Shown piece by piece: positions 4,682 to 27,966 of a stretch of DNA of 64,000 nt (the first letter of the stretch is position 1; the number at the start of each line of letters is the position of its first letter). The stretch lies in the NCBI GenBank assembly GCA_029582155.1, contig CM055900.1:47281236-47345235 (forward strand). The letters run 5' to 3'. The notes under the pieces were generated by a model that did not search any database, was not told the DNA's origin, and worked only from the letters and a program-made list of their open reading frames with translations. The stretch is from Panopea generosa. Taxonomy: Eukaryota; Mollusca; Bivalvia; Adapedonta; Hiatellidae. Position numbers and translations under genes: made by a program.

Positions 4682-4780
4682 ATTGAGCGATTGCTACAGA
4701 GAAACCACAGTCCACAGAAATACTCGTCAGACCAGGCGTACAGACTACAGCAGGGCTTCCTCATTAGTTCCACGCAGCAG
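4682..4780 (+). CDS. CARMIL: CARMIL exon (start of dimerisation domain)
   Basis: 99 nt, phase 0 at both ends, between cactgcag and gtacag. It encodes IERLLQRNHSPQKYSSDQAY followed by RLQQGFLISSTQQ. Vertebrate CARMIL has the same LxRN....K...(D/E)QAYRLQQG...S.TQQ block at the start of the helical dimerisation domain. The last 43 bases of the exon (from 4738) with the donor and adjoining intron form the first unit of a 241-bp tandem array. The true donor should be the first one, because reading through meets TAA within about 35 bases of intron. Confidence 0.94.
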
Positions 4781-6180
4781 GTACAGAGAATATACATAAT
4801 AAATTATATTTAACTTACTTCAGCAATAGTTTTCAATATAAACAGTTCAACGTAGATGTAACTAAGCTAATAAGAAATTTTCTTTAAAACTCATAAATGA
4901 ACTGGCACCTGTTTCACCAACATATTTAATTATATGCTTAAATACTTAAAAACTGAAATCTAAGAAAAACATCCTGCTGTACAGACTACATCAGGGCTTC
5001 CTCATTAGTTCCACGCAGCAGGTACAGAGAATATACATAATAAATTATATTTAACTTACTTCAGCAATAGTTTTCAATATAAACAGTTCAACGTAGATGT
5101 AACTAAGCTAATAAGAAATTTTCTTTAAAACTCATAAATGAACTGGCACCTGTTTCACCAACATATTTAATTATATGCTTAAATACTTAAAAACTGAAAT
5201 CTAAGAAAAACATCCTGCTGTACAGACTACAGCAGGGCTTCCTCATTAGTTCCACGCAGCAGGTACAGAGAATATACATAATAAATTATATTTAACTTAC
5301 TTCAGCAATAGTTTTCAATATAAACAGTTCAACGTAGATGTAACTAAGCTAATAAGAAATTTTCTTTAAAACTCATAAATGAACTGGCACCTGTTTCACC
5401 AACATATTTAATTATATGCTTAAATACTTAAAAACTGAAATCTAAGAAAAACATCCTGCTGTACAGACTACAGCAGGGCTTCCTCATTAGTTCCACGCAG
5501 CAGGTACAGAGAATATACATAATAAATTATATTTAACTTACTTCAGCAATAGTTTTCAATATAAACAGTTCAACGTAGATGTAACTAAGCTAATAAGAAA
5601 TTTTCTTTAAAACTCATAAATGAACTGGCACCTGTTTCACCAACATATTTAATTATATGCTTAAATACTTAAAAACTGAAATCTAAGAAAAACATCCTGC
5701 TGTACAGACTACAGCAGGGCTTCCTCATTAGTTCCACGCAGCAGGTACAGAGAATATACATAATAAATTATATTTAACTTACTTCAGCAATAGTTTTCAA
5801 TATAAACAGTTCAACGTAGATGTAACTAAGCTAATAAGAAATTTTCTTTAAAACTCATAAATGAACTGGCACCTGTTTCACCAACATATTTAATTATATG
5901 CTTAAATACTTAAAAACTGAAATCTAAGAAAAACATCCTGCTGTACAGACTACAGCAGGGCTTCCTCATTAGTTCCACGCAGCAGGTACAGAGAATATAC
6001 ATAATAAATTATATTTAACTTACTTCAGCAATAGTTTTCAATATAAACAGTTCAACGTAGATGTAACTAAGCTAATAAGAAATTTTCTTTTAAACTCATA
6101 AATGAACTGGCTCCTGTTTCACCAACATATTTAATTATATGCTTAAATACTTAAAAACTGAAATCTAAGAAAAAACATCC
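4738..6180 (+). repeat. 241-bp tandem array carrying exon 3' end and splice donor, 6 copies
   Basis: Period exactly 241, shown by acagactac at 4740, 4981, 5222, 5463, 5704 and 5945. Each unit has 43 bases of CARMIL exon (encoding YRLQQGFLISSTQQ), the donor gtacagagaa, intron sequence, and about 70 bases of the left end of a MITE (cctgtttcaccaacat...). Copies 1-5 look identical apart from one G-to-T in copy 2 (acatcag). Copy 6 has two substitutions and one extra A, and runs on into the intact MITE. Expansion is therefore recent. Confidence 0.97.
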
Positions 6181-6684: not shown

Positions 6685-7454
6685 GTAAAAATGTTTTTAT
6701 AGCAATTGTGTCCCTTGTTTCAATTGTGAGTGTCACCAGTGAATTATTAACATTATATGTTTATGTGTCTCTGGTGTCACCATGTATTGGGCTGTAAATT
6801 AAAAGTGTAGGTTAAACCTTCACTGCTGTTGTTGTACGTATTTTTGAACTTATTTATTTTACATTGATTGCAAACAAATTTCTAACTTATGAACAATTTC
6901 TGCTCATTGACTTCTGTTTCTTTTATCAATAGCCACCTAAAGTGACATTATGTCCAGCTGTAGCCATTGTCTAGTGAATTAATTCCCTTAAAGCACACAT
7001 CCTTTTATAAACCATCACACTAGATTTAGCGATAATTGAGTTTTAGTGAATTGCTTTCAAGTCCATTTCTTGGGTAATACCAGTACTTTTTGTTATGAGA
7101 AGCCATGGATCTGGATCTGGGATTGAACAAATTACCTCTGCCATCCAATGCAACACCCTATCCACTGCACAACCACTCTTCTTTCATTTATTTGATTTCC
7201 AAACTTAATAATGCTGAATTTAGTTAATATGAAAGCAGGTACCTTTCAGTCTAACCAATTCAGCTGATAGCATGTTGGCTACTTACACCATGGGTTCAGC
7301 CTCAAGCACAATCCAATGGACTCATATAAGCACGCTTAGTACCTGTTTTACCTAGGAAATGGATCGAAGAGTGATAATCTCTGAGCGCAACTAAGCTAAT
7401 TCAAATAATTATAAGCTAATCTGACCAGTTGACCAATTGTGTGTTGTATTTCAG
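6685..7454 (+). other. Intron, no gene seen
   Basis: Plain intron sequence. Around 7105-7165 it contains reverse tRNA-like SINE debris (ctgggattgaacaaatt, then aatgcaacaccctatccact). No open frame with support. Confidence 0.45.
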
Positions 7455-7571
7455 TTGTTGCCAAAACTTCATGACATAGCCATTGAATCTCAAAATACTG
7501 GAAATCCTGTGGAAAAGAAACTCAAAGAGATAGCTGCAGATCTGAAATCGGTTCTTGAAACACAAATGCAG
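7455..7571 (+). CDS. CARMIL: CARMIL exon (dimerisation domain)
   Basis: 117 nt, phase 0 at both ends, acceptor tatttcag, donor gtaagg (near-consensus). It encodes LLPKLHDIAIESQNTGNPVE, then KKLKEIAADLKSVLETQMQ. Vertebrate CARMIL has NSKTLLPNL at this junction and a following helix ending in V..(D/E)Q. The amphipathic pattern fits the dimerisation domain. Confidence 0.91.
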
Positions 7572-7850
7572 GTAAGGGACTCTGTCCACGTTTACTGTTT
7601 GTGATACAAAATGCTATGTCCTGTTTATAAGAAATAGTGAATTTATAACCACGTTGTATTATAGGAACAACTGTTAATTGTTAATATGTTTTAGTAGTTT
7701 AGGAATGTTATCTGTATTACTTTATTCCTACAGAAAAAAAAATGTTGGTAAAAAAAAAGGCTATGATGTATCATGAGGTACATCTTCTGACATTTGTATA
7801 CCATGAGAATCGCATACATACTTAACATCTTCCAACTTATTTTATTTCAG

Positions 7851-7913
7851 AAAACTGTCCAGGACATGTTAGATTCGGCAACTAAAAAGTGTCAAGCCAT
7901 AATGGGTGATAAG
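7851..7913 (+). CDS. CARMIL: CARMIL exon (dimerisation domain, short)
   Basis: 63 nt, phase 0 at both ends, acceptor tttatttcag, donor gtgaga. It encodes KTVQDMLDSATKKCQAIMGD plus K. It corresponds to the vertebrate segment with ...ML.(A).....C...M.. between the Gln-ending helix and the basic stretch. Both splice sites are strong and the phase fits both neighbours. Confidence 0.88.
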
Positions 7914-8159
7914 GTGAGAAAGAGAATTCTATATTTGCTGGTTAAGGTATAAGATCTAATTTATAAAGAACTCACTGACTTTACAAAATATTTTTGATTA
8001 TTTTGCAATGACACTGACAAAATTCCTAAATACATTTATACCACAGAGCAAGTTGTTCTACAGCTGAAAATTAGGCAGAAAATTCAAAATTGTACGGGAT
8101 GCAGATAGAAACTCATCGTAACATTTTTCTGGTTCTTTAATGTGCTGGGTATTTTAATG

Positions 8160-8295
8160 CCATCACACAGGCCCACTATTTAATGTCCCATCCGAGAGAC
8201 ATTTAGTATTTTCAATTGACCAGACCGGGAATTGAACCTGCAACCCTCAGACTAGAAGTCCCATGCTCTGCTGACTGAGCTATTCTGGCTGACTA
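8160..8295 (-). mobile_element. tRNA-derived SINE head, reverse strand
   Basis: Read on the minus strand it gives an A-box-like tagctcagtcagcagagcat and a B-box-like ggttgcaggttcaattcccg, the layout of a Pol III tRNA promoter. It does not fold as an intact tRNA, and the sequence continues into non-tRNA intron, so it is a SINE relic. Confidence 0.6.
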
Positions 8296-8462
8296 TATGC
8301 TTGTAATAAACATGAACACTTACACATCTGTTACACATAATGGGTAACTGTTATTGTGACCGTAGTTAATAAAATAAGAATGTTAAGAATTAAATAACAG
8401 TATAATTATGTAGTATAATTGCTAGCAAAACATTGTTGTTGTATTCTTTACTGTGCAGGTCT

Positions 8463-8550
8463 GGTCCCATTCACTAAACACCTGAACTTGATATTTTCTT
8501 CAACTTAAATCCCTAATTGAAATGCTATAACTCCATTCACATTGATCATA
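8463..8550. mobile_element. Partial MITE end (cactaaacatctc family)
   Basis: cccattcactaaacacctga followed by tattttcttcaacttaaat resembles the left ends of the MITEs at 14806, 31055 and 43393. No matching right end was found, so it is a truncated copy. Confidence 0.4.
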
Positions 8551-8804
8551 TTATATTTTATTTTTCAATAATGAGTACACATGTGTTATCACTTCATTTA
8601 TGTTTGGCCATTTATATTATAAACACAACCGAAGTAACAGTGTTATACTTCACACAGGTGATTATAATGATAGTTACATAATGAAAATAAAAATTATCTT
8701 TATATACTCATATCTTTGAATAGGGTTTGCTTGGAAATTATTTTTGCATTTGCTTATTGATTGATAATGTTTTTATGGTGTTTAGAGTTGTTTTCAATTT
8801 TCAG

Positions 8805-9035
8805 TCATATCACTACGTCATCTACTTGAGACAGTATTCTGATTGCTGCCACGTGGGATTATCATGGTATGATACCCCACCCAGTCACATTATACTGACT
8901 GCAGGCTGACCTGACCTAGAACTATCCTCCCAATGCTGAGTGCCAAGTGAGGAAACTTCCGGTTCTATGACCCAAACCCACAATCTGCCTTCCATGTGAG
9001 GTGGACACTCTACCACTAGACCATGCTGTGGTCTT
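8805..9035 (-). mobile_element. tRNA-Gly-like SINE, reverse strand
   Basis: On the minus strand it begins with a head containing ggtctagtggtagagtgtcc, then a body ending in ggggtatcataccatgataa. It shares ordered blocks (ggtatgataccccac; cctagaactatcctc; gagtgccaagtgaggaa) with 15645-15885, and more weakly with 37870-38100, so these are copies of one family. Confidence 0.75.
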
Positions 9036-9278
9036 CTTTGATGATTGAACAAATATCATTAAGTTTTGGAAATCGTTCTGCCTTGCTTTAATTTGGTGGG
9101 GGTGGGGTATGTATTTTTTGTGGGTTGGGGTGGGGTTCGGATATTTTGCTGACAATATTTCTGTATTACCCATGTTAAAACGTAGAAATAACCTGCTATA
9201 CAGTATATTATAAACTGGAGAATGATCTCGTAGCGTATTGCTTATTGTCTAACATGATCGTTTATATGTTTGTTTCAG

Positions 9279-9388
9279 TCTTTCATGTCAGATGTGAGGA
9301 CAGGTTGTGTAGAGAAGAGTGCCTTCCCGAAAGACTTTACCAGTAATATACTAGATGGTGTAGATACAGACATATTCAATCAACTCAG
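9279..9388 (+). CDS. CARMIL: CARMIL exon (dimerisation domain)
   Basis: 110 nt, phase 0 in, phase 2 out, acceptor tgtttcag, donor gtaacg. It encodes SFMSDVRTGCVEKSAFPKDF, then TSNILDGVDTDIFNQL with a split Ser codon AG|T. The order ...(E)K...P..F....L......DI.N..S matches vertebrate CARMIL. Its last AG joins T of the next exon, giving NQLSELNLAV. The intron that follows holds the 110-bp array, so the correct partner acceptor is more than 5 kb away behind about 29 decoys. Confidence 0.92.
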
Positions 9389-11341
9389 GTAACGCATGTG
9401 TTCTTTATACTTGAATAAAAAGTAGTGAACATTTCCTCATATGATTGAAAATGATATTACAATGAATTTATCAAATGTTTCAGTCTAAATGATAGTTTCA
9501 GACATTTTCTCTTGAAGTAACATTGTAATTAATTGTTACTTAAAGAAAACATCCATTTTCGCTGGTCTTAAAGAAATTCAATAGAGCCACCACAGTTGAA
9601 AAGGGAAATAATTCAGTTTATCTTTATAAGAATTCCAACTTTTTCGTTTCCCTTTATGAAAAACAAATTATGTATTTCTAGTAAATTGCTAATATGTAAA
9701 ATAATATGTAAAAGAAGTTTAAAATTGCTTTCAATGCCTTTAGAGCGACAGTAACTTAAAAAAGACGAGATGGCAAATAAAGAAAACCATGTTAGTGCCT
9801 GATAATCTAAAATTTATCAGGTGAAGTGAGAGAAAAAAAATTCAGCTGAATCTGATAAATTTTAGACTATCAAGCACAATCATGGTACTCTATTTATCAT
9901 ATCTATTTGCATGTTTTATTTATTTTTATTTAAAATACCAAAGACTGATTTTTGTCCAGCTTTCAAAATTCAAAAGCAGGTGGGTGCATATGTGGCAAAT
10001 GCACCAGAATATAGTTCCAAATTTGATTGATGAAATATGAACAAAAGTCATTGGTAGTTTTTTATAGAAACTTTTCAACTCTGTTACAATTATTAATTTA
10101 TAGTTATTGTCATTATTAACACACAAACAGTTTTTCAACGGTCGAAAAGATGTGTAAATATGGGTTTAACACAATACGAAAACTGACTTAATCACTTTGT
10201 ATGTTGGTGCATGATAAACCTTCCCTCTTAATAAAGTAAAAGTTTATCTTACCCCCCCCCCCCCTTTATAATGTAGATTAATACATAATGGTATGATAGA
10301 AATTGTTTCTGCTTAGTAATTGTAGTCTCCTTTAAGATATTCCTGATAAAATTTCATATGTTAATTGTTTTATCAAAAAGAAACCTGGGATTGTTTTATA
10401 GGTAAATGACTTTAAGGTCATGGTCAGTGTAACTAAAAATAGGAAAGTTGATTCTGTTCAATAACATGATTGCTTTTGAAATATCCTGATTATAATTTAT
10501 AGGCAAATAACTTTTTATGTCATATACTGTAAAAAAAATCTGAAAATCCTTTACCTATTTCTTCCTGGCAATCAAAAACCAGTCAGATTGTGTTAGGAGA
10601 GCGCAGTAAGGTCATAGAACTCTTATTTGCTATGCTGCTTTCAATGTGAATTAAAAGACTAGGATACTACGAATCCCACCTGGTATAGTTCTGTATGTCG
10701 AGAGTTAATTTGTTATGAAAGAAGATGTGAAAACATCATTAAGGTTTACAGTTACTGTAACCTCTGACCAACATTGACTAACATCAAGATATTATTTAAG
10801 AATTGAAAAAGAGTTTGTTCATTATGTCTCTAATTAAATCCTTACTGAATTTAGAAAGATATTTAAACCTTGATTTTACTTTCAATCTCAAACAGTCACT
10901 GGCACATTTTCGATGCTCTTCTCACAAATAAAATATTGAAATTGATCATCCGTCAAACATTAAGAGAGGAAATAGAATATGTTATTCTGTTTTTTAACTT
11001 CGAATATACTGGTGACAGAAAATGAAGACCATGTATTTTAATGTTTTAAATATAGTCATGTTAGAGAAACATATTTGTATTATTGGTATATAGGACATTC
11101 AGAACATACAGATTTTTACTAATTCAAAGAGAGAATCCAGATACCATAAGAAATATTGCTCTTTTTATAACAAAATTGTTTGTAATAAATATAAATGAAA
11201 CATAGTTTTACATTATACGGTACGATTTTCATACACTTCAAATGTATATTTAGTATATTGTAACACAACTCTGTAAAACATGAATGATTAACAATTATTG
11301 TTGTATTTTGGGGCAGAGTCCTTTATTTACTCAATAAAACA
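9389..11341 (+). other. Intron upstream of the 110-bp array; one fold-back, otherwise empty
   Basis: AT-rich, no credible open frame. It holds the fold-back element at 9785-9890 and a run of about 14 C at 10251-10264. No other repeat stands out. Confidence 0.5.
9785..9890. mobile_element. Short fold-back element (about 35-bp arms)
   Basis: The left arm, from ccatgttagtgcctgataat into ctaaaatttatcag, is matched by the reverse complement of the right arm ending gactatcaagcacaatcatgg. The arms are about 85-90% identical around a 30-base A-rich centre. It could form a long hairpin in RNA. Small MITE or fold-back transposon; no coding capacity. Confidence 0.7.
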
Positions 11342-14300
11342 TGTATATTGTATAGTAACAATGTGATTGTTTGTTCTGTGTTGACAGTGAGTTGAACCTG
11401 GCTGTGGCAGCCCACGTGTCAGATAGAGTTATAGATGAGGTGATAGAGAGTTGTATATTGTATAGTAACAATGTGATTGTTTGTTCTGTGTTGACAGTGA
11501 GTTGAACCTGGCTGTGGCAGCCCACGTGTCAGATAGAGTTGTAGATGAGGTGATAGTGAGTTGTATATTGTATAGTAACAATGTGATTGTTTGTTCTGTG
11601 TTGACAGTGAGTTGAACCTGGCTGTGGCAGCCCACGTGTCAGATAGAGTAATAGATGAGGTGATAGTGAGTTGTATATTGTATAGTTACAGTGTGATTGT
11701 TTGTTCTGTGTTGACAGTGAGTTAAACCTGGCTGTGGCAGCCCACATGTCAGATAGAGTTGTAGATGAGGTGATAGTGAGTTGTATATTGTATAGCAACA
11801 ATGTGATTGTTTGTTCTGTGTTGACAGTGAGTTGAACCTGGCTGTGGCAACACACGTGTCAGATAGAGTAATAGATGAGGTGATAGATAGTTGTATATTG
11901 CATAGTAACAATGTGATTGTTTGTTCTGTGTTGACAGTGAGTTGAACCTGGCTGTGGCAACACACGTGTCAGATAGAGTAATAGATGAGGTGATAGAGAG
12001 TTGTATATTGTATAGTAACAATGTGATTGTTTGTTCTGTGTTGACAGTGAGTTGAACCTGGCTGTGGCAACACACGTGTCAGATAGAGTAATAGATGAGG
12101 TGATAGAGAGTTGTTTATTGTAAAGTAACAATGTGATTGTTTGTTCTGTGTTGACAGTGAGTTAAACCTTGCTGTGGCAGCCCACGTGTCAGATAGAGTT
12201 GTAGATGAGGTGATAGTGAGTTGTATATTGTATAGCAACAATGTGATTGTTCTGTGTTGACAGTGAGTTGAACCTGGCTGTGGCAGTCCACGTGTCAGAT
12301 AGAGTAATAGATGAGGTGATAGAGAGTTGTATATTGTATAGTAACAATATGATTGTTTGTTCTGTGCTGACAGTGAGTTGAACCTGGCTGTGGCAGCCCA
12401 CGTGTTAGATAGAGTAATAGATGAGGTGATAGAGAGTTGTATATTGTATAGTAACAATATGATTGTTTGTTCTGTGTTGACAGTGAGTTGAACCTGGATG
12501 TGGCAGCCCACGTGTTAGATAGAGTAATAGATGAGGTGATAGAGAGTTGAATATTGTATATTACCAATGTGATTGTTTGTTCTGTGTTGACAGTGAGTTG
12601 AACCTGGCTGTGGCAGCCCACATATTAGATAGAGTAATAGATGAGGTGATAGAGAGTTGTATATTGTATAGTAACAGTGTGATTGTTTGTTCTGTGTTGA
12701 CAGTGAGTTGAACCTGGCTGTGGCAGCCCACGTGTCAGATAGAGTTATAGATGAGGTGATAGAGAGTTGTATATTGTATAGTAACAGTGTGATTGTTTGT
12801 TCTGTGTTGACAGTGAGTTGAACCTGGCTGTGGCAGCCAACGTGTCAGATAGAGTAATAGATGAGGTGATAGAGAGTTGTATATTATATAGTAACAGTGT
12901 GATTGTTTGTTCTGTGTTGACAGTGAGTTGAACCTGGCTGTGGCAGCCCATGTGTCAGATAGAGTTATAGATGAGGTGATAGAGAGTTGTATATTGTATA
13001 GTAACAATGTGATTGTTTGTTCTGTGTTGACAGTGAGTTGAACCTGGCTGTGGCAGCCCACGTGTTAGATAGAGTAATAGATGAGGTGATAGAGAGTTGT
13101 ATATTGTAAAGTAACAATGTGATTGTTTGTTCTGTGTTGACAGTGAGTTGAACCTGGCTGTGGCAGCCCACGTGTCAGATAGAGTTATAGATGAGGTGAT
13201 AGAGAGTTGTATATTGTATAGTAACAATGTGATTGTTTGTTCTGTGTTGACAGTGAGTTGAACCTGGCTGTGGCAGCCCACGTGTCAGATAGAGTTATAG
13301 ATGAGGTGATAGAGAGTTGTATATTGTATAGTAACAATGTGATTGTTTGTTTTGTGTTGACAGTGAGTTGAACCTGGCTGTGGCAGCTCACGTGTTAGAT
13401 AGAGTAATAGATGAGGTGATAGAGAGTTGTATATTGTATAGTAACAATGTGATTGTTTGTTTTGTGTTGACAGTGAGTTGAACCTGGCTGTGGCAGCCCA
13501 CGTGTCAGATAGAGTTAAAGATGAGGTGATAGTGAGTTGTATATTGTATAGTAACAATGTGATTGTTTGTTCTGTGTTGACAGTGAGTTGAACCTGGCTG
13601 TGGCAGCCCACGTGTCAGATAGAGTTATAGATGAGGTGATAGAGAGTTGTATATTGTATAGTAACAATGTGATTGTTTGTTTTGTGTTGACAGTGAGTTG
13701 AACCTGGCTGTGACAGCCCACGTGTTAGATAGAGTAATAGATGAGGTGATAGAGAGTTGTATATTGTATAGTAACAATGTGATTGTTTGTTCTGTGTTGA
13801 CAGTGAGTTGAACCTGGCTGTGGCAACACACGTGTCAGATAGAGTAATAGATGAGATGATAGAGAGTTGTATATTGTAAAGTAACAATGTGATTGTTTGT
13901 TCTGTGTTGACAGTGAGTTGAACCTGGCTGTGGCAGCCCACGTGTCAGATAGAGTAACAGATGAGGTGATAGAGAGTTGTATATTGTATAGAAACAATGT
14001 GATTGTTTGTTCTGTGTTGACAGTGAGTTGAACCTGGCTGTGACAGCCCACGTGTCAGATAGAGTTATAGATGAGGTGATAGAGAGTTGTATATTGTAAA
14101 GTAACAATGTGATTGTTTGTTCTGTGTTGACAGTGAGGTGAACCTGACTGTGGCAGCCCACGTGTCAGATAGAGTTATAGATGAGGTGATAGAGAGTTGT
14201 ATATTGTATAGTAACAATGTGATAGTTTGTTCTATGTTGACAGTGAGTTGAACCTGGCTGTGGCAGCCCATGTGTCAGATAGAGTTATAGATGAGGTGAT

Positions 14301-14636
14301 AGAGAGTTGTATATTGTATAGTAACAATGTGATTGTTTGTTCTGTGTTGACAGTGAGTTGAACCTGGCTGTGACAGCCCACGTGTCAGATAGAGTTATAG
14401 ATGAGGTGATAGAGAGTTGTATATTGTAAAGTAACAATGTGATTGTTTGTTCTGTGTTGACAGTGAGTTGAACCTGACTGTGGCAGCCCACGTGTCAGAT
14501 AGAGTTATAGATGAGGTGATAGAGAGTTGTATATTGTATAGTAACAATGTGATAGTTTGTTCTATGTTGACAGTGAGTTGAACCTGGCTGTGGCAGCCCA
14601 TGTGTCAGATAGAGTTATAGATGAGGTGATAGAGAG
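11342..14636 (+). repeat. 110-bp tandem array carrying splice acceptor and exon 5' end, about 30 copies
   Basis: Each unit has about 47 intron bases (ttgtatattgtatagtaaca, atgtgattgtttgttctgtg, ttgacag) and 63 exon bases beginning tgagttgaacctggctgtgg. The intron part holds a branch-point-like tagtaac, a T/G-rich tract and the AG. Copies are mostly over 90% alike; one near 12245 lacks four bases of the T-rich tract. Only the last copy continues into the full exon with a donor. The acceptor gacag|tgag is retained in every copy I read. Confidence 0.98.
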
Positions 14637-14661
14637 ACTGTCAAAGACTCACAAGTCGCTT
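14574..14661 (+). CDS. CARMIL: CARMIL exon (end of dimerisation domain)
   Basis: 88 nt, phase 2 in, phase 0 out, donor gtaagt (consensus). With the split codon it encodes SELNLAVAAHVSDRVIDEVI, then ERLSKTHKSL. Vertebrate CARMIL has SE..L.VA..LSDRIVDEIL..LS..H..L here. This start is chosen because only this last array copy has the complete exon and a donor. Entering at any earlier acceptor reads into the next unit and meets TGA within about 40 codons. Confidence 0.94.
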
Positions 14662-14805
14662 GTAAGTAACATAAATATTCATACCTTTGCTAAGAAGTCT
14701 AATGTTAAGATAGATTACTACCTTTACTGATCCTGTTAAAATATGAAGCTATGTACCTAGGCTTTGTCCTACATCTCATTTCTGGATTCTGCCATCATAT
14801 TGAGA

Positions 14806-15018
14806 TCGGTGTCCAGTTTCACTAAACATCTCTAGCTGAGAATTTTCTCAACTAAAAAGTTTCACAGTTTCTATAAATTATTACTTAAAACATTAAATGA
14901 CAGCACAGAATTAAAGTCAAAACAAATCTGAGGTCATTGATAAGGAAAACACTCATCAGTGTAGTTAAAGTAATTCAAAGGTTCAGTTGGAGAAAACAAC
15001 AAATGAAACTGGAGCCAG
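14806..15018. mobile_element. MITE, TIR family cagtttcactaaacatctc
   Basis: Left end gtccagtttcactaaacatc, right end aaatgaaactggagcc, with internal blocks acagcacagaattaaagtc and aacaaatctgaggtcattg also seen (partly) at 31055-31277 and in reverse at 43393-43650. Non-coding. Confidence 0.7.
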
Positions 15019-15059
15019 GAATCAAAATTTAAACACACTTTTAAAATTGATAATTATTT

Positions 15060-15355
15060 TTTAGCTCGCCGGGACAAAGTCCAAGGAGAGCTATTGTCAT
15101 GACCCTAGTGTCATCGTCGGTGTCGTCTTCTGTAGACACCCAGGTTAAACTTTTGTGTTTAAGTTTAAGATATATATGCAACCACTCATTGGATGTGAAC
15201 AAAACTTTGCATGTGTGTTCACCATCATCAGTGGAACACACACATACAAGAACCATAACTCTTGATTGCATTTTGGCACAGTTATGGCCCTTTTTGGACT
15301 TAGACACCCAGAGGCGGCTTTGTTGGTCTTCTGACAACTCTTGTTATGTAATACT
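15060..15355 (+). repeat. Mollusc-type dispersed repeat with AGCTC head
   Basis: It opens tagctcgccgggacaaagtc, then gagagctattgtcatgaccc, and continues with a body containing ttttggcacagttatggccc. This is a dispersed repeat style I associate with bivalve introns. The overlapping 86- and 98-residue frames on both strands are chance frames within it. Confidence 0.55.
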
Positions 15356-15644
15356 TTGATAATGCATCATTTGTTTTTTTCCCAATAGTTAGATGAGAGT
15401 ACAGACAAATGTTACTTTTATAACTGTGATATGGTAGGCTTGGACAACACAATTTAGTTTCTGCACAAGTAATTTTTTATGTGACTGTCATATTTGTGTC
15501 CACAGTACTGCCCACTGACAAACCCATTCTGGCCAGTCCTGAATATCACCTGTTGTATTTATACTCTTCCTAAGTTCTATAGATTGTGTTTCCCAGGTAT
15601 ATAGTAAATTTTCAGTTATATCGTGATGGTATCTTTTTGGTGTC

Positions 15645-15885
15645 AGTTTGAGACAGTATTCTAAGTGCTACTACACTGGAGTGTCATTCCACAGATACAG
15701 GGTATGATACCCCACTTACTCATAGAGTCACCGGGTTGACCAGACCTAGAACTATCCTCTAAATGTTGAGCACCAAGGGAGGAAGCTTCTAGTACCAATT
15801 TTCAAGTCTTTGGTATGACCTGGCCTTGGATCAAACACATGACCTTTCACATGTAAGGCAGATGCTCTAGCTGTAGACCACCAAT
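15645..15885 (-). mobile_element. tRNA-Gly-like SINE, reverse strand
   Basis: It shares ordered blocks with 8805-9035: ggtatgataccccactta, gaccagacctagaactatcc, gagcaccaagggaggaagc. It ends in a reversed tRNA-like head (ggcagatgctctagctgtag). It sits directly next to the TTAA-flanked MITE at 15891. Confidence 0.75.
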
Positions 15886-15890
15886 ACAGT

Positions 15891-16079
15891 TTAACCCTTT
15901 ACTTCATATAGACGCCTTTTGACACCTCTAATACGGAAAGCATTAATTCATCACGTATCAGCAATTGGTGAATTATGTTTATATTAACTGACAGAGTAAT
16001 CTGAACTCTTCCTACACTGTTTTCAAAGGCCTTCTGTGATTGGTGCGGGAAAACGCGTATCTGTGGAGTAAAGGGTTAA
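15891..16079. mobile_element. TTAA-flanked MITE, piggyBac type (copy 1)
   Basis: Bounded by ttaaccctttacttcatata on the left and gtggagtaaagggttaa on the right. The ends are inverted repeats starting CCCTTTAC immediately inside a TTAA on each side. TTAA target duplication with a CCC-starting terminal repeat is the mark of piggyBac elements. At 189 bp it is non-autonomous. A second copy lies at 45842-46012 with the same interior (aattatgtttatattaactg; ggccttctgtgattggtgcg). Confidence 0.85.
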
Positions 16080-16313
16080 GGGTTTCAGTTTTCATGTACA
16101 TGGATTCATGTTATACATCTATTTGAGGCTTTCTTTCACCTTTAAAACTTTTTAAACACAATATGTGATGTAGGCTAAGAATGTTTTGAAAATGGTAAAT
16201 TCAGAATTTCATATACAGTGCTCTAAATGGTTTGAAAATTTATTTCTAGACTGGATGCTAAGCTTGACCATGTAGATGTCAGATATGATGTATACCTTTT
16301 TCTTGTTTTACAG

Positions 16314-16427
16314 ACCAATCATTTAAACCAGAAGAGGAAAGATGACGCAAGGAAAAGTCAGACAAAATCTCAGAAAATGGAAGACGACGAAGCCAATAGG
16401 CGAACAAAAAGCACAGAGTCTCCGCAG
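16314..16427 (+). CDS. CARMIL: CARMIL exon (basic linker after dimerisation domain)
   Basis: 114 nt, phase 0 at both ends, acceptor tgttttacag after a T-rich tract, donor gtacga. It encodes TNHLNQKRKDDARKSQTKSQ, then KMEDDEANRRTKSTESPQ. The start (…L.(D/N)H…) follows the vertebrate order; the rest is charged, disordered linker and poorly conserved, as expected. Phase agrees with both neighbours. Confidence 0.85.
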
Positions 16428-17045
16428 GTACGAAAACAGATCAAAATATTTGGTTATCGGATAAGAATGTTTTGAGAAATTAATATACAACTAATTCATT
16501 GTTTGAAAGTGGCTTTTTTAATTGGCATTTACACAGCCTGGTGTGCCCATATGTGCTTATCATAGATTGGAAATAGAAACTTGATATTTACTTACTGTAG
16601 TTTTGAATACATTCATATATTTGTACATATACAATATATATAAGATGAGAAGGTAGGTGTGAATGTTTACATTAATTGTTCCATTGTAGAGATAAGTAAA
16701 AGTATTTTTCCTGTTGCATTTTGGGAGTCTTCAAGTTCCCTGTACCATAGTGACTCATCCGTGTGAAGCTAAGCAAAGTTGTACCATTTACAGGTCATCT
16801 GTTGTCTGTCTGTCTGTCCGTCCACTCTTCATATTTGAGAACGATAATATAGGCTTTTCATTTGTTAATGAAATCTTCCAAAGGTAACATTTTGTTGCCA
16901 TAATATGTCTTAATATATGTATAAAATGGCTTGACACACATTAAAACAACTTACTACATTTTAATTTGATCTAATATGTTATAAATAAAAGGAACCATGA
17001 ATAAATACTTAACATGTCTATTTAAATCACTTTTAGGGAGCACAA
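16428..17045 (+). other. Intron before the 54-bp array
   Basis: No gene. There is a degenerate AGCT-family fragment at about 16770-16860 (tctgtctgtctgtccgtcca), otherwise AT-rich. Confidence 0.45.
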
Positions 17046-17049
17046 CATA

Positions 17050-20000
17050 AGGTAAATTGGTGGACTTAACAAATCCCAAATATATCTATACAAGATAAGG
17101 ATGATTGTTACAATGGCATAACACCTAACCTAGATACATGTATACAAGATAAGGATGATTGTTACAATGGCAGAACACCTAACCTAGTTACATGTATGCA
17201 AGATAAAAATGATTGTTACAATGGCAGAACACCTAACCTAGTTACATGTATGCAAGATAAGAATGATTGTTACAATGGCAGAACACCTAACCTAGTTACA
17301 TGTATGCAAGATAAGAATGATTGTTACAATGGCAGAACACCTAACCTAGTTACATGTATGCAAGATAAGAATGATTGTTACAATGGCAGAACACCTAACC
17401 TAGTTACATGTATGCAAGATAAGAATGATTGTTACAATGGCAGAACACCTAACCTAGTTACATGTATGCAAGATAAGAATGATTGTTGCAATGGCAGAAC
17501 ACCTAACCTAGTTACATGTATGCAAGATAAGAATGATTGTTGCAATGGCAGAACACCTAACCTAGTTACATGTATGCAAGATAAGAATGATTGTTGCAAT
17601 GGCAGAACACCTAACCTAGATACATGTATGCAAGATAAGAATGATTGTTGCAATGGCAGAACACCTAACCTAGATTCATGTACGCAAGATAAGAATGATT
17701 GTTACAATGGCAGAACACCTAACCTAGATTCATGTACGCAAGATAAGAATGATTGTTACAATGGCAGAACACCTAACCTAGTTACATGTACGCATGATAA
17801 GAATGATTGTTACAATGGCAGAACACCTAACCTAGATACATGTATGCAAGATAAGAATGATTGTTACAATGGTAGAACACTAGATACATGTATGCAAGAT
17901 AAGAATGATTGTTACAATAGCTAAACACCTAACCTAGTTACATGTACGCAAGATAAGAATAATTGTTACAATGGCAGAACACCTAACCTAGTTACATGTA
18001 TGCAAGATAAGAATGATTGTTACAATGGCAGAACACCTAACCTAGATACATGTATGCAAGATAAGAATGATTGTTACAATGGCGGAACCTAACCTAGTTA
18101 CATGTATGCAAGATAAGAATGATTGTAACAAGTGCAGAACACCTAACCTAGTTACATGTACGCAAGATAAGAATGCTTTTTACAATGGCTGAACACCTAA
18201 CCTAGATACATGTATGCAAGATAAGAATGATTGTAACAAGTGCAGAACACCTAACCTAGTTACATGTACGCAAGATAAGAATGCTTTTTACAATGGCTGA
18301 ACACCTAACCTAGATACATGTATGCAAGATAAGAATGATTGTTACAATGGCTGAACACCTAACCTAGATACATGTATGCATGTAAGTAAGATAAGAATGA
18401 TTGTTACAATGGCAGAACACCTTACCTAGTTACTTGTATGCAAGATAAGAATGATTGTTACAATGGCAGAACACCTAACCTAGATACATATATGCAAGAT
18501 AAGAATGATTGTTACAATGTTACAATGGCAAAACACCTAACCTAGATACATGTACGCAAGATAGGAACGATTGTTACAATGGCTGAACACCTAACCTAGT
18601 TACATGTACGCAAGATAAGAATGATTGCTACAATAGCAAAACACCTAACCTAGTTACATGTATGCAAGATAAGAATGATTGTTACAAAATACCTAACCTA
18701 GTTATATGTGTGCAAGATAAGAATGATTGTAACAATGGCAGAACACCTAACCTAGATACATGTAAACAAGATAAAAATGATTGTTACAATGGCAGAACAC
18801 CTAACCTAGATACATGTATGCAAGATAAGAATGACTGTTACAAAACACCTAACCTAGTTATATGTATGCAAGATAAGAATGATTGTTACAATGGCAGAAC
18901 ACCTAACCTAGATACATGTATGCAAGATAAGAATGATTGTTACAATGGCTGAACACCTAACCTAGATACATGTATGCAAGATAAGAATGATTGTTACAAT
19001 TGCAGAACACCTAACCTAGTTACATGAATGCAAGATAAGAATGATTGTTACAATAGCAGAACACCTAACCTAGATACATGTATGCAAGATAAGAATGATT
19101 GTTACAATGGCAGAACACCTAACCTAGTTACATGTACGCAAGATAAAAATGATTGTCACAATGGCAGAACACCTAACCTAGTTACATGTATGCAAGATAA
19201 GAATGATTTGTCACAATGGAAGAACACCTAACCCAGTTACATGTATGCAAGATAAGAATGATTGTCACAATGGCAGAACACCTAACCTAGATACGTGTAC
19301 GCAAGATAAGAATGATTGTCACAATGGCAGAACACCTAACCTAGATACATGTACGCAAGATAAGAATGACTGTCACAATGGCTGAACACCTAACCTAGAT
19401 ACATGTATGCAAGATAAGAATGATTGTCACAATGGCAGAACACCTAACCCAGTTACATGTACGCAAGATAAGAATGATTGTCACAATGGCAGAACACCTA
19501 ACCTAGATACATGTACACAAGATAAGAATGATTGTCACAATGGCAGAACACCTAACCTAGTTACATGTATGCAAGATAAGAATGATTGTTACAATAGCAA
19601 AACACCTAACCTAGATACATGTATGGAAGATAAGAATGATTGTCACAATGGCTGAACACCTAACCTAGATACATGTATGCAAGATAAGAATGATTGTTAC
19701 AATAGCATAACACCTGACCTAGTTACATGTACGCAAGATAAGAATGATTGTCACAATGGCTGAACACCTAATCTAGTTACATGTATGCAAGATAAGAATG
19801 ATTTTCACAATGGCAGAACACCTAATCTAGTTACATGTACGCAAGATAAGAATGATTGTCACAATGGCTGAACACCTAACCTAGTTACATGTATGCAAGA
19901 TAAGAATGAATGTCACAATGGCTGAACACCTCATCTAGTTACATGTACGCAAGATAAGAATGATTGTTACAATGGCTGAACACCAAACCTAGTTACATGT

Positions 20001-23000
20001 ATGCAAGATAAGAATGATTGTCACAATGGCTGAACACCTAATCTAGTTACATGTATGCAAGATAAGAATGATTGTCACAATGGCTGAACACCTAACCTAG
20101 TTACATGTATGCAAGATAAGAATGATTGTCACAATGGCTGAACACCTAATCTAGTTACATGTATGCAAGATAAGAATGATTGTCACAATGGCTGAACACC
20201 TAACCTAGATACATGTATGCAAGATAAGAATGATTGTCACAATGGCAGAACACCTAACCTAGTTACATGTATGCAAGATAAGAATGATTGTCACAATAGC
20301 AAAACACCTTACCTAGTTACATGTATGCAAGATAAGAATGATTGTCACAATGGCTGAACACCTAATCTAGTTACATGTACGCAAGATAAGAATGATTGTC
20401 ACAATGGCTGAACACCTAACCTAGTTACATGTTCGCAAGATAAGAATGATTGTCACAATGGCTGAACACCTAACCTAGTTACAGGTACGCAAGATAAGAA
20501 TGATTGTCACAATGGCTGAACACCTAACCTAGATACATGTTTGCAAGATAAGAATGATTGTCACAATGGCTGAACACCTAACCTAGATACATGTATGCAA
20601 GATAAGAATGATTGTCACAATGGCTGAACACCTAATCTAGATACATGTATGCAAGATAAGAATGATTGTTACAATGGCAGAACACCTAGCCTAGTTACAT
20701 GTACGCAAGATAAGAATGATTGTTACAATGGCAGAACACCTAATCTAGATACATGTTTGCAAGATAAGAATGATTGTTACAATGGCAGAACACCTAATCT
20801 AGATACATGTAAGCAAGATAAGAATGATTGTTACAATGGCAGAACACCTAATCTATATACAGGTATGCAAGATAAGAATGATTGTTACAATGGCTGAACA
20901 CCTAACCTAGATACATGTATGCAAGATAAGAATGATTGTTACAATGGCAGAACACCTAGCCTAGTTACATGTACGCAAGATAAGAATGATTGTTACAATG
21001 GCAGAACACCTAACCTAGATACATGTACGCAAGATAAGACTGATTGTTACAATGGCTGAACACCTAACCTAGATACATGTACGCAAGATAAGAATGATTG
21101 TTACAATGGCAGAACACCTAACCTAGTTACATGTACGCAAGATAAGAATGATTGTTACAATGGCAGAACACCTAATCTAGATACATGTATGCAAGATAAG
21201 AATGATTGTTACAATGGCAGAACACCTAGCCTAGTTACATGTACGCAAGATAAGAATGACTGTTACAATGGCAGAACACCTAACCTAGATACACGTACAC
21301 AAGATAAGAATGATTGTTACAATGGCAGAACACCTAACCTAGATACACGTATGCAAGTTAAGAATGATTGTTACAATGGCAGAACACCTTACCTAGTTAC
21401 ATGTATGCAAGATAAGAATGATTGTTACAATGGCTGAACACCTAACCTAGATACATGTATGCAAGATAAGAATGATTGTTACAATGGCAGAACACCTAAT
21501 CTAGTTACATGTATGCAAGATAATAATGATTGTTACAATGGCAGAACTACTAATCTAGTTACATGTATGCAAGATAAGAATGATTGTTACAATGGCTGAA
21601 CACCTAACCTAGATACATGTATGCAAGATAAGAATGATTGTTACAATGGCAGAACACCTAACCTAGTTACATGTATGCAAGATAAGAACGATTGTTAGCA
21701 GAACACCTAACCTAGATACATGTATGCAAGATAAGAATGATTGTTACAATGGCAGAACACCTAATCTAGATACATGTACGCAAGATAAGATTGATTGTTA
21801 CAATGGCAGAACACTTAACCTAGATACATGTACGCAAGATAAGATTGATTGTTACAATGGCAGAACACCTAACCTAGATACATGTATGCAAGATAAGAAC
21901 GATTGTTAGCAGAACACCTAATCTAGTTACATGTACGCAAGATAAGAATGATTGTTACAATGGCAGAACTACTAATCTAGTTACATGTACGCAAGATAAG
22001 AATGATTGTTACAATGGCAGAACACCTAACCTAGAAACATGTACGCAAGATAAGAATGATTGTTACAATGGCAGAACACCTAACCTAGTTACATGTATGC
22101 AAGATAAGAACGATTGTTAGCAGAACACCTAATCTAGTTACATGTACGCAAGATAAGAATGATTGTTACAATGGCAGAACTACTAATCTATTTACATGTA
22201 CGCAAGATAAGAATGATTGTTACAATGGCAGAACACCTAATCTAGATACATGTACGCAAGATAAGATTGATTGTTACAATGGCAGAACACCTAGCCTAGT
22301 TACATGTATGCAAGAAAAGAATGACTGTTACAATGGCAGAACACCTTTACCTAGATATATGTTTGCATGATAAGAATGATTGTCACAGTGGCTGAACACT
22401 TAACCTAGTTACATGTACTGCAAGATAATAGTTGTTGTCGCACTGGCTAAACACATAACCTAGTTACATGTACGCAAGATAATAATTGTTGTCACATTGG
22501 CTTACACCTAACCTAGTTGCATGTACGCAAGATAAAAGTGGTTGTCACTCTGGATGAACACCTAATCTTGTTGCATGTATGCAAGATAAGAATGGTTGTT
22601 ACACTTGTTGAACACCTAATCTAGTTACATGTACGCAAGATAATAATGATTGTTACAATGGCAGAACACCTAATCTAGATACATGTATGCAAGATAAGAA
22701 TGAGTGTTACAATGGCAGAACACCTAACCTAGTTACATGTACCCAAGATAAGAATGATTGTTACAATGGCAGAACACCTAATCTAGATACATGTATGCAA
22801 GATAAGAATGATTGTTACAATGGCAGAACACCTAATCTAGATAAATGTATGCAAGATAAGACTGATTGTTACAATGGCAGAACACCTAATCTAGATACAT
22901 GTACGCAAGATAAGAATAATTGTTACAATGGCAGAACACCTAATCTAGTTACATGTACGCAAGATAAGAATGATTGTTACAATGGCAGAACACCTAATCT

Positions 23001-25815
23001 AGATACATGTACGCAAGATAAGATTGATTGTTACAATGGCAGAACACCTAGCTTAGTCACATGTATGCAAGATAAGAATGATTGTTACAATGGCAGAACA
23101 CCTAACCTAGATACATGTATGCAAGATAAGAATGATTGTTACAATGGCAGAACACCTAATCTAGTTACATGTATGCAAGATAAGAATGATTGTTACAATG
23201 GCAGAACTACTAATCTAGTTACATGTACGCAAGATAAGAATGATTGTTACAATGGCAGAACACCTAACCTAGATACATGTATGCAAGATAAGAATGATTG
23301 TTACAATGGCAGAACACCTAACCTAGTTACATGTATGCAAGATAAGAATGATTGTTACAATGGCTGAACAACTTACCTAGTTACATGTATGCAAGATAAG
23401 AATGATTGTTACAATGGCTGAACACCTAACCTAGATACATGTATGCAAGATAAGAATGATTGTTACAATAGAAGACACCTAATCTAGTTACATATACGCA
23501 AGAAAAGAATGATTGTTACAATGGCTGAACACCTAACCTAGTTACATGTATGCAAGATAAGAATAATTGTTACAATGGCAGAACACCTAATCTAGTTACA
23601 TGTATGCAAGATAAGAATGATTGTTACAATGGCTGAACACCTAACCTAGATACATGTATGCAAGATAAGAATGATTGTTACAATGGCTGAACACCTAATC
23701 TAGATACATGTATGCAAGATAAGAATGCTTTTTACAATGGCAGAACACCTAACCTAGTTACATGTATGCAAGATAAGAAAGATTGTTACAATGGCTGAAC
23801 ACCTAACCTAGATACATGTATGCAAGATAAGAATGGTTGTTACAATGGCAGAACACTTAACGTAGTTACATGTATGCTAGATAAGAATGATTGTTACAAT
23901 AGCAGACACCTAACCTAGTTACATGTATGCAAGATAAGAAAGATTGTTACAATGGCAGAACACCTAACCTAGATTTGCATGTATGCATGATAAGAATGAT
24001 TGTCACAGTGGCTGAACACCTAACCTAGTTACATGTACGCAAGATAATAACTTGTTGTCGCACTGGCTAAACACATAACCTAGTTACATGTACGCAAGAT
24101 AATAATTGTTGTCACATTGGTTTACACCTAACCTAGTTGCATGTACGCAAGATAAAAGTGGTTGTCACTCTGGATGAACACCTAATCTTGTTGCATGTAT
24201 GCAAGATTAGAATGGTTGTTACACTTGCTGAACACCTTACATGGTTACATGTATGCAAGATAAGAATGATTGCCACACTGGCTGAACACCTAACCTAGAT
24301 ACATGTATGCAAGATAAGAATGATTGTCACACTGGCTGAACACCTAACCTAGATACATGTATGCAAGATAAGAATGATTGTTACACTGGCTGAACACCTT
24401 ACATGGTTACATGTAGGCAAGATAAGAATGATTGCCACACTGGCTGAACACCTAACCTAGATTACATGTATGCAAGATAAGAATGATTGTCACACTGGCT
24501 GAACACCTAACCTAGATACATGTATCCAAGATAAGAATGATTGTTACAATGGCTGAACACCTAATCTAGATACATGTATGCAAGATAAGAATGCTTTTTA
24601 CAATGGCAGAACACCTAACCTAGTTACATGTATGCAAGATAAGAAAGATTGTTACAATGGCTGAACACCTAACCTAGATACATGTATGGAAGATAAGAAT
24701 GATTGTTACAATGGCAGAACACCTAACCTTAGTTACATGTATGCTAGATAAGAATGATTGTTACAATAGCAGACACCTAACCTAGTTACATGTATGCAAG
24801 ATAAGAAAGATTGTTACAATGGCTGAACACCTAACCTAGATTTGCATGTATGCAAGATAAGAATGATTGTCACAGTGGCTGAACACCTAACCTAGTTACA
24901 TGTACGCAAGATAATAATTGTTGTCGCACTGGCTAAACACATAACCTAGTTACATGTACGCAAGATAATAATTGTTGTCACATTGGCTTACACCTAACCT
25001 AGTTGCATGTACGCAAGATAAAAGTGGTTGTCACTCTGGATGAACACCTAATCTTGTTGCATGTATGCAAGATAAGAATGGTTGTTACACTTGCTGAACA
25101 CCTATTCTAGTTGCATGTAGGCAAGATAAGAATGGTTGTTATACTGGTTGAACACCTAATCTAGTAGCATGTATACAAGATAAGAATGATTGTCACACTG
25201 GCTGAACACCTAATCTAGTTACATGTACGCAAGATAAGAATGGTTGTTACACTGGCTGAACACCTTACCTGGTTACATGTATGCAAGATAAGAATGATTG
25301 CCACACTTGCTGAACCTAATCTAGTTACATGTACGCAAGATAAGAATGGTTGTTACACTGGCTGAACACCTTACCTGGTTACATGTATGCAAGATAAGAA
25401 TGATTGCCACACTGGCTGAACACCTTACCTGGTTACATGTACGCAAGATAAGAATGATTGCCACACTGGCTGAACACCTTACCTGGTTACATGTACGCAA
25501 GATAAGAATGATTGCCCCACTGGCTGAACACCTAACCTAGATACATGTATGCAAGATAAGAATGATTGTCACACTGGCTGAACACCTAACCTAGATACAT
25601 GTATTCAAGATAAGAATGATTGTTACAATGGCTGAACACTTAATCTAGTTATACGTACGCAAAATAAGAATGGTGTTACACTGTCTAATAACCTAATCTA
25701 GTTGCATACATGTATGCAATATAAGAATGATTGTTACAATGGCTGAACGCCTTACCTAGTTACATGTATGCAAGATAAGAATGATTGTTACACTGGCTAA
25801 ACACCTAACCTAATT
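17050..25815 (+). repeat. 54-bp minisatellite, about 160 copies, with higher-order structure
   Basis: The unit reads atgtatgcaagataagaatg, attgttacaatggcagaaca, cctaacctagttac; 54 is a multiple of three, so stop-free runs give false peptides repeating MQDKNDCYNGRTPNLVTC (242 residues at 17196-17924, 226 at 22687-23367). Copies fall into zones: tacaatggcaga early, cacaatggctga about 19150-20640, mixed later, and cacactggctga toward the end. A five-unit block repeats at 20641, 20911 and 21181 (270 bp apart). A diverged block recurs near 22363, 23974 and 24841, the last two about 867-869 bp apart. Confidence 0.97.
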
Positions 25816-26027
25816 ACATGCATGGAATGTTGCTTATGTTATGATTGTTACCACCATTGTTCTGCTTACAGTTCAACAACAGCTTTTTGGAAGTTCCAGT
25901 TCTGCGGGTACCACTGCATGTCTGCATACCATTCTGTCTTTGTATGCTTTACATTATCCATCTCTCATAGCTTGCTTTTAATGTCAGTTGTATTATTTGT
26001 AAATGTGGTAGACCCAGATCAGCATTG

Positions 26028-27424
26028 AAGTGACTCAGTCTGATCTTGGAGTGACTCAGTCTGATCATGGAGTGACTCAGTCTGATCATGGAGTAACTCA
26101 ATCTGATCATGGAATAACTTGATCTGATCATGGTGTAACTCGGTGGTCTGAATACTGAGGAACTTGGTCTGATCATGGAGTGACTCAGTCTGATCTCTGA
26201 GTAACTCAGTTTGATCTGGGAGTAACTCAGTCTGATCTTGGAGTACCTCAGTCTGATCTTGGAGTGACTCAGTCTGATCATGGAGTTACTCAGTCTAATC
26301 TTGGTGACTCAGTCTGATCTTGAAGTAACTCAATCTGATAATGGAGTGACTCAATCTGATCATGGAGTAACTCAGTCTGATCTTGAAGTAACTTGGTCTG
26401 ATCATGGAGTATCTTGGTCTGATCTTGGAGTAACTCAGTCTGATTATGGGGTGACTCAGTCTGATCTTAGAGTGACTCAGTCTGATCCTGGAGTAACTCA
26501 GTGTGATCTTGGAGTGACTCAGTCTGATCTCAGAGTGACTCAGTCTGATATTGGAGTGACTCAGTCTTATCATGGAGTGAATCAATCTGATCTTGGAGTA
26601 GCTCAGTCTGATCTTGAAGTGACTCAGTCTGATCATGGAGTGACTTAGTCTGAAATTGAAGTAGCTCAGTCTGATCTTGGAGTGGCTTAGTCTGATCTTG
26701 GAGTAGTTCAGTCAGATCTTGGAGTGACTCAGTCTTATCATGGAGTGACTCAGTCTGATCTTGGAGTAACTCAGTCTGATCTTGGATAAGCTCAGTCTGA
26801 TCTTGAAGTGACTCAGTCTTATCATGGAGTGACTCTGTCTGATCTTGGAGTAGCTCAGTCTGATCTTGGAGTGACTCAGTCTTATCATGGAGTGACTCAG
26901 TCTGATCTTGGAGTGACTCAGTTTGATCTTGGAGTAGCTCAGTCTGATCTTGGAGTAGCTCAGTCTGATCTTCTGATCTTGGAGTAGCCCAGTCTGATCT
27001 TTGAGTAGCAAGGTCTGATCTTGGAGTGACTCAGTCTTATCATGTAGTGACTCAGTCTGATCTTAAAGTAACTCAGTCTGATCTTGGAGTGACTCAGTCT
27101 TTTCATGGAGTGACTCAGTCTGATCTTGGAGTAACTCAGTCTGATATTGGAGTAGCTCAGTCTGAAATTGGAGTAGCTCAGTCATATCTTGGAGTAGCTC
27201 AGTCTGATATTGGAGTAGCTCAGTCTGATCTTGGAGTAGCTCAGTCTGATCTTCTGATCTTGGAGTAGCTCAGTCTGATCTTGGAGTAGCTCAGTCCGAT
27301 CTTGGAGTAGCTCAGTCTGATCTTGGAGTGACCCAGTCTTATCATGAAGTGACTCTGATCTTGGAGTGACTCAGTCTTATCATGGAGTGACTCAGTCAGA
27401 TCTTGGAGTAGCTCAGTCTGATCA
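26028..27424 (+). repeat. 21-bp minisatellite, about 65 copies
   Basis: The unit is cagtctgatcttggagtgact with variants (cat for ctt, tag for tga). It starts about 210 bases after the 54-bp array ends. Both strands are open over long stretches because 21 is a multiple of three and the unit lacks stops, giving false frames of 80-122 residues. Not coding. Confidence 0.96.
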
Positions 27425-27787
27425 TAATACAAATTTTGTAATAAAAAAACTTAAACAACTGTAAACATAAATTGCTGGAATTGTCTTGTTTTGTTGAGAC
27501 TTTCATTCATCAAAGTAACAGTTTTGATTTGTATTCCTGAGATGAATGGAAAATGATATTTCCTTAGATTTTGCGTGAATATGCAAGCTTTCATAAAATG
27601 TCAGTAAGTTGCCATTTCTCCTGTATACAAGTCCTTGAAACAACTTGTTAAATAAGTAAATAAACCTTTAAAATGAAGATGAAAAAGAAATGTACAGGTA
27701 AACACTTCCTTCTTCATTATTTCAACAAAATCTATGTCATGTTTATACTATCAGTGTTATGATGTCTGACATGGTAATCTATAATCT

Positions 27788-27966
27788 TAGGCCATAAAAA
27801 ATCAATTGCTAGATTATCATTCCAGCCTTGCCTCTAATTTTCAAGCTGCCCTGACCCTTTTTGTTTTCATAAGTAAAAAAATTATCTCCCCCCACCCCCC
27901 CTGTCCCTCCCCGATTTAATAAGAATTTGGATGATGAGAATCTAGCAATTAATTGATAATGACTTT
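27788..27966. mobile_element. MITE, TIR family ttgctagattatcatcc
   Basis: Left end taggccataaaaaatcaatt followed by gctagattatcattcc; right end gatgatgagaatctagcaat. The ends are inverted repeats around a C-rich core (ccccccaccccccc). Other copies are at 36801-36990 (opposite orientation) and 41755-41967. Confidence 0.75.

Follow-up and report, generated by a model that had tools for sequence, protein, structure and literature searches.

Thirty tandem copies of a 3' splice site and exon start in an apparently intact CARMIL gene of the bivalve Panopea generosa

Background

The stretch of DNA analyzed here (termed the window) comprises 64,000 nucleotides of contig CM055900.1 of the Panopea generosa assembly GCA_029582155.1 (positions 47,281,236 to 47,345,235, forward strand); together with its flanks it amounts to 264,000 bases, 5,000 of them N. 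Through it runs, on the + strand, a gene for CARMIL, an actin regulator, and within this gene lies a tandem array whose unit consists of the 3' end of an intron joined to the 5' part of the following exon. Here the anatomy of this array, the gene around it, the predicted consequences of using its many acceptors, and the variation among its copies are described, and explanations for its existence are weighed.

Results

The array adjoins two exons on the + strand: an upstream exon of 110 nt (9279..9388), which ends at the donor CAG|gtaacg, and an exon of 88 nt (14574..14661), which is in frame. Their joint peptide matches the Pfam domain CARMIL_C (E 5.8e-16; 59.4 bits, the cut-off being 25) and PDB entry 9ec0 (E 5.9e-8), the F-actin-uncapping protein LRRC16A, also called CARMIL1. 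A tblastn search with an approximate human CARMIL1 sequence as query placed conserved exons, in order and all on the + strand, between a point 49.8 kb upstream of the window and one 7.8 kb past its end, that is, over about 120 kb, the far end being at window coordinate 71.8 kb. The matched exons, which presumably encode the PH, leucine-rich and capping-protein-interaction parts of CARMIL, share one strand and follow one another in order. Each conserved exon is open over its placed length and is provided with splice sites; 22 acceptors and 22 donors were placed by eye and then located in the sequence, one exon being left without a placed donor.

Genome-wide, the CARMIL_C profile (E up to 10, best 30 candidates) gave at least 24 matches, 23 of them within the array and one in an exon further along the CARMIL gene. 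The Carm_PH profile (best 14 candidates) gave at least 10 weak matches, none of them above the Pfam cut-off; the three best are clustered, in order, within the CARMIL gene, and seven others are scattered and weaker. Among these candidates (which for CARMIL_C are mostly array copies) there is no second convincing CARMIL locus. Some exons of poorly conserved stretches were not found by tblastn with the CARMIL1 query or by a Pfam scan. The latter, run in three frames over 6690-9278, 14662-17086 and 25800-29760 (the last two on either side of the 54-bp array at 17087-25824), disclosed no further exon, its sole match being a weak one to CARMIL_C (E 0.23), which falls on the exon already placed near 29.7 kb. 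An open stretch at 7455-7586, weakly similar to the CARMIL1 query (tblastn E 0.17), is a plausible further exon, and a serine-rich open frame occurs near 44.8 kb. The locus is apparently a single intact CARMIL gene, and the claim that the array sits in a conserved gene holds: besides the domain match, the ordered exons and the lack of a second locus in these searches, the terminal exon is in frame.

The array itself occupies 11342..14636 (+ strand) and is called by TRF as one tandem array with a period of 110, 30.0 copies, 95% matches and a score of 5946, well outside what chance would produce. Searching with TGACAGTGAG gave 30 sites, and because 28 of the 29 spacings are 110 and the remaining one is 106, no copy was missed by this pattern. 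Each unit consists of the last 47 nt of the intron followed by the first 63 nt of the exon--except that copy 9, being 4 bases short, has 43 nt of intron--and straddles the exon-intron boundary in all 30 copies. The copy table and the real exon (14574-14661) thus confirm both statements with which an earlier note on this DNA had begun, namely that there are about thirty tandem copies and that the unit is a 3' splice site plus 63 of the 88 exon bases. When a 439-base piece of the array was compared with the whole genome (1.47 Gb, 39 contigs), all 12 matches listed fell inside the array.

An AG is present in every copy, and the acceptor scores lie inside the range of the gene's real acceptors (see below). 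Copy 30 (14527..14636, + strand), the functional acceptor unit, supplies the first 63 nt of the 88-nt exon; the last 25 nt, which are unique, and the donor at 14661/14662 follow this copy only. The exon ends CTT|gtaagt, its real 5' splice site gtaagt being at 14662..14667 (+ strand). The units also contain a donor-like GTGAGT that overlaps the acceptor AG by one base (in copy 1 at 11387..11392, + strand), so that ACAG|TGAGT contains ACA|GTGAGT; GTGAGT is found in 29 of the 30 units, and copy 26 has GTGAGG.

With copy 9 left out, the copies differ on average at 5.2 of 110 bases, private variants are shared in blocks, and neighboring copies are more similar than they are in shuffled order (P 0.0024). 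Copies 25-27 and 28-30 make up two blocks of 330 bp each (13977..14636, + strand) that show 1, 1 and 0 differences per unit, copy 30 being identical over all 110 nt to copy 27 (14197-14306); these blocks are best read as a recent block duplication or conversion that included the functional copy. The 22 distinct exon variant types comprise 15 replacements and 7 silent changes, as expected under neutrality (0.667 replacement, 0.283 silent; binomial P 0.81), and include no stop (the chance of none being 0.66). Hence these 22 types reveal no protein-level constraint on the upstream copies (termed here decoys), and the possibility that the decoys are hidden coding exons was rejected. Within the last 23 intron bases 4 of 23 columns are variable versus 32 of 87 elsewhere (Fisher P 0.087), which gives a weak hint of constraint that may act on the decoy acceptors. 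The array junction carries one T that is found in neither flank.

The earlier note had called for scoring every copy with a splice-site model, and had argued that the gene must either skip about 29 functional-looking acceptors or tolerate a large output of aberrant transcripts. Matrices were derived from the 22 acceptors and 22 donors of this one gene, copy 30 being kept outside the acceptor matrix. The 30 copies score from 4.4 to 6.1, with copy 30 (6.1) tied with copy 27, and all lie within the leave-one-out range of the real acceptors (-6.8 to 13.9); they beat 3 to 6 of the 22, so that the decoys rank in the lower third of the gene's real acceptors. The overlapping donor-like site, ACAGTGAGT, scores 5.7 and is over the threshold (4.5) in 29 of 30 copies, ACA|GTGAGG of copy 26 scoring 4.4; the donor of the real exon, when excluded from the matrix, scores 4.8, below the 5.7 of the overlapping decoy donors.

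How dense such sites are in the array depends on the threshold. At a loose acceptor threshold of 0.22 (the third-lowest real acceptor), the ordinary intron at 9389-11341 (2 kb) contains 28 acceptor-like sites, the best scoring 9.8 and a few outscoring all 30 array acceptors; the array contains 42, of which 30 are the copies' own acceptors and one of the 12 extras, which lies in copy 4, has a score of 8.8 and exceeds the real acceptor. The resulting density is 12.7 per kb in the array versus 12.5 elsewhere in the gene. With the median score of the array as the threshold, acceptor-like sites are denser in the array (28 of the 30 copies in 3.3 kb versus 267 sites in the other 118.7 kb), and donor-like sites reach 10.8 per kb there, roughly double the 5.7 per kb of the gene. 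Because acceptor-like sites are already dense in the upstream intron, skipping decoys is something that the CARMIL gene has to do in any case. Thus the 29 functional-looking acceptors stand; the burden that they impose is smaller than was claimed, the decoys being ordinary and the intron holding 28 similar sites. The choice of acceptor must depend on context, the paired donor being one example; by themselves the one-gene matrices do not single out the last copy.

What would follow from using a decoy was computed with exon 9279-9388 as the donor exon. Whichever of the 29 earlier acceptors is used, read-through runs into a stop 64-115 nt past the junction. For 10 of the 29 the total length stays in frame, yet all 10 stop as well; hence, of the proposal that entry at any earlier copy causes a frameshift and a stop, the stop is upheld in every case and the frameshift is not the general reason for it. 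A further proposal, that only the last copy has the rest of the exon and a donor, is right about the rest of the exon; the earlier copies, however, are not without donors, ACA|GTGAGT being above threshold in 29 of 30 copies, so that at that threshold 28 of the 29 decoys are complete pseudo-exons. Of the 29 pseudo-exons, 28 are 109 nt long and one is 105 nt long; joining any one of them to copy 30 is computed to give a stop at or before that junction (29/29). Five copies have, in addition, ATA|GTGAGT, and the 58-nt pseudo-exons that end there likewise stop (5/5, computed). These computations support the view that the normal protein would need the last acceptor, that of copy 30.

Two more arrays in the same gene have units that span an exon edge. 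The 3' part of a 99-nt CARMIL exon (4682..4780, + strand) is the first copy of an array of six 241-bp units (4738..6180, + strand), each consisting of about 43 nt of exon 3' end, the donor CAG|gtacag and intron; reading on to donors 2-6 meets a stop after 43 codons in all five cases. Over the unit compared there is no difference among copies 1, 3, 4 and 5, a single one in copy 2, and a score of 10 differences for copy 6 when aligned without gaps. The third array, of diverged units of about 40 bp (window -4796 to -4080, L018:5204-5920), begins at a CARMIL exon's donor and contains seven intact ATAG|GTCAGT copies including the real donor, each scoring 8.7. Elsewhere, an array of 13.9 copies of a 17-bp unit (window -14745 to -14510, L017:5255-5490) stops four bases short of a CARMIL acceptor, whose pyrimidine tract it appears to supply.

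Tandem arrays 150 bp or longer number 21 over the gene span (-49800 to 71950) and together fill 32,670 of 121,750 bp (about 27%), the largest being a 54-bp unit repeated 162 times. Units span an exon edge in 3 of the 21 arrays versus 0.47 expected for 45 edges (Poisson P 0.012), where a 40-bp sub-unit was used for the array called 159 bp by TRF and where the edge count misses exon edges of poorly conserved parts, including 7455-7586 and the serine-rich frame near 44.8 kb. Without the 110-bp array that prompted the analysis there are 2 versus 0.43 expected, and since P is then 0.070, the enrichment at exon edges is suggestive only. Random placement of whole arrays yields 4.2 edge overlaps on average versus the 3 seen, that is, more rather than fewer. 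Two other candidates for arrays of this kind were rejected: two copies of a 36-bp unit at 55930-56001, the first with the acceptor-like TTTATTTTCAG, beside which no coding frame was seen, and a 21-bp array at 26025-27425, in sequence where each frame holds 40-62 stops.

As a base rate, profile matches of other gene families (CCT, 47; myosin head, at least 81, from the best 65 of 254 candidates; adaptin, 29) were checked by visual inspection for neighboring matches to one and the same part of the profile. Among these 157 matches listed there is no series of three or more such neighbors, where such inspection is blind to boundary units with a short coding part, including those of the second and third CARMIL arrays. 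One exon stretch of the TCP-1/Cpn60 family occurs twice at C5 (L045:387-546, 754-913), 76% identical and 367 bp apart, and is possibly an old exon duplication or a pair of mutually exclusive exons; a suspected myosin pair at C2 was rejected, there being no DNA repeat.

Discussion

The earlier note knew of no minisatellite built from a 3' splice site at such a copy number in a conserved gene. As a claim of no precedent this fails, at least for the kind of array and its layout. In amphioxus, minisatellite-like tandem duplications across an exon-intron boundary, called mirages, are described for the globin gene BflGb6 and for Adh3 (PMC3087553). According to that paper, the BflGb6 mirage consists of an intron 3' end plus an exon 5' part, has 6 or 3 units of 150-160 bp depending on the haplotype, and has cluster boundaries that are excluded from homogenization; BflGb9 has a mirage at the opposite boundary; RT-PCR suggests that regular splicing is undisturbed; and the authors propose mirages as a route of intron gain. 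Splice signals are reported in many copies, which evolve in concert (PMC3087553, PMC3902484); mirages of lancelet Adh and TnC are reported to be free of aberrant mRNAs, and lancelet PGBD5 to have tandem repeats of 60 and 108 bp over its 5' and 3' splice sites (PMC3902484). In human, a minisatellite that gives multiple donors is known from IFI6 (6-16; Turri et al. 1995, as cited in PMC4526556 and PMC2572611), of which PMC4526556 says that two repeat units are used as alternative donors, and tandem repeats at exon-intron boundaries are described as a possible source of new introns (PMC2812944). PMC4039745 concerns regulatory minisatellites rather than copies of splice sites. For molluscs, no splice-boundary minisatellite is announced in the titles and abstract openings of the papers listed by searches on mirages, molluscs and duplicated splice sites; several of the papers listed, among them PMC6905558, PMC5780484 and PMC3862624, mention both molluscs and minisatellites.

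Like the amphioxus mirages, the CARMIL array spans an exon-intron boundary, carries splice signals in its copies and evolves in concert, and with BflGb6 it shares the arrangement of intron end plus exon start. By its sequence it has the general mirage features that were tested, namely a boundary-spanning unit, one authentic copy and concerted evolution. It differs in copy number and unit length (30 units of 110 bp versus the 3 or 6 units of 150-160 bp described for BflGb6), and whereas the boundaries of BflGb6 are reported to escape homogenization, its own functional boundary unit matches copy 27 exactly. The genes are others (globin, Adh3 and TnC in amphioxus), as apparently is the lineage: at 1.47 Gb the genome is about three times as large as those of lancelets, and the intronic elements look molluscan. 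PGBD5 likewise has short copies over splice sites, its 108-bp unit being close in length to that of CARMIL; it is, however, described as an imperfect 3 x 108 bp triplication in a chordate gene, unlike an array of 30 copies. IFI6 is likewise a transcribed gene with a splice-site minisatellite, in that case of donors rather than acceptors. The array thus apparently extends mirages beyond the cephalochordates, and what seems new relative to those known is the number of copies, the inclusion of the functional unit in the turnover and the presence of two more boundary arrays in the same gene.

The array is likely to be a mirage that expanded neutrally. It would have been founded by a tandem duplication of about 109 bp across the 3' splice site of the CARMIL exon, for which the extra T at the junction suits an origin by end joining, and would have grown from there to 30 units through unequal exchange or conversion. 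All 29 copies that precede the last would then be intronic decoys that evolve about neutrally, and copy 30 would be the acceptor in use because no other copy continues into the remaining exon sequence and the real donor; we infer that it is chosen through this pairing, that is, by exon definition. A leak into a decoy would lead to a premature stop and probably to nonsense-mediated decay, so that accurate splicing, presumed by analogy with the amphioxus mirages, together with the removal of leaks by decay, may account for an array that is probably tolerated despite its decoys. Weighing against this reading, the strength of the sites does not by itself pick out copy 30, whose acceptor ties with that of copy 27 and whose donor scores below the overlapping decoy donors, and the last intron bases give the weak hint of constraint noted above.

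The same stops could instead serve a purpose: decoy use might send a share of the transcripts to nonsense-mediated decay, with copy number tuning the CARMIL level. Such a poison-splicing device is made conceivable by the stop met on every decoy route tested (all 29 read-throughs, and all 29 pseudo-exons when joined to copy 30) and by the scores of the decoy acceptors and their overlapping donors, which are in the range of the gene's real sites. It is nevertheless improbable, given that constraint on the acceptors is hinted at only weakly (P 0.087), that published mirages are reported to leave splicing undisturbed (PMC3087553, PMC3902484), and that acceptor-like sites are numerous in an ordinary intron of the CARMIL gene as well.

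A true locus with one or few copies, misassembled into thirty, is more doubtful still. Aberrant assembly is indeed reported for the BflGb6 mirage (PMC3087553); the copies here, however, diverge by the mean of 5.2 of 110 bases given above (copy 9 left out), include one that is 4 bases short and share private variants in blocks, which argues against an artefact, since false duplication usually gives near-identical blocks. Many unrelated arrays, moreover, fill more than a quarter of the gene span.

About as doubtful, if not slightly more so, is the suggestion that the gene is a decaying pseudogene, or that the 88-nt exon is skipped. It could draw on the exons of poorly conserved parts that were not found, and on the fact that the frame continuity checks cover the exon pairs 9279/14574 and 4682/6556 only; against it, the conserved exons are in order, open and equipped with splice sites, the terminal exon is in frame, and no other CARMIL locus was found in the profile searches. 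Recursive splicing through the array, in which each acceptor regenerates the next donor (CTCAG joined to TGAGTT does restore TCA|GTGAGT), was rejected on frame and is highly improbable, since the regenerated donor lies one base inside the junction, so that re-splicing to copy 30 drops that base and meets a stop.

Conclusions

The array is a naturally occurring case in which to test how one of thirty near-identical acceptors is selected by the spliceosome. In it, the first 63 nt of a conserved coding exon take part in minisatellite turnover, and with it mirages apparently extend beyond lancelets and up to a copy number of 30. A bolder and rather unlikely generalization is that, in this lineage, splice junctions at either end of an exon are the preferred birthplaces of minisatellites. 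Coding exon ends would then be the moving edges of fast-turning arrays, and mirages would be a general way in which exon edges change and introns are gained outside the cephalochordates. With three boundary arrays in one gene, the idea that splice junctions may be hot spots for the birth of minisatellites becomes directly testable across genomes.
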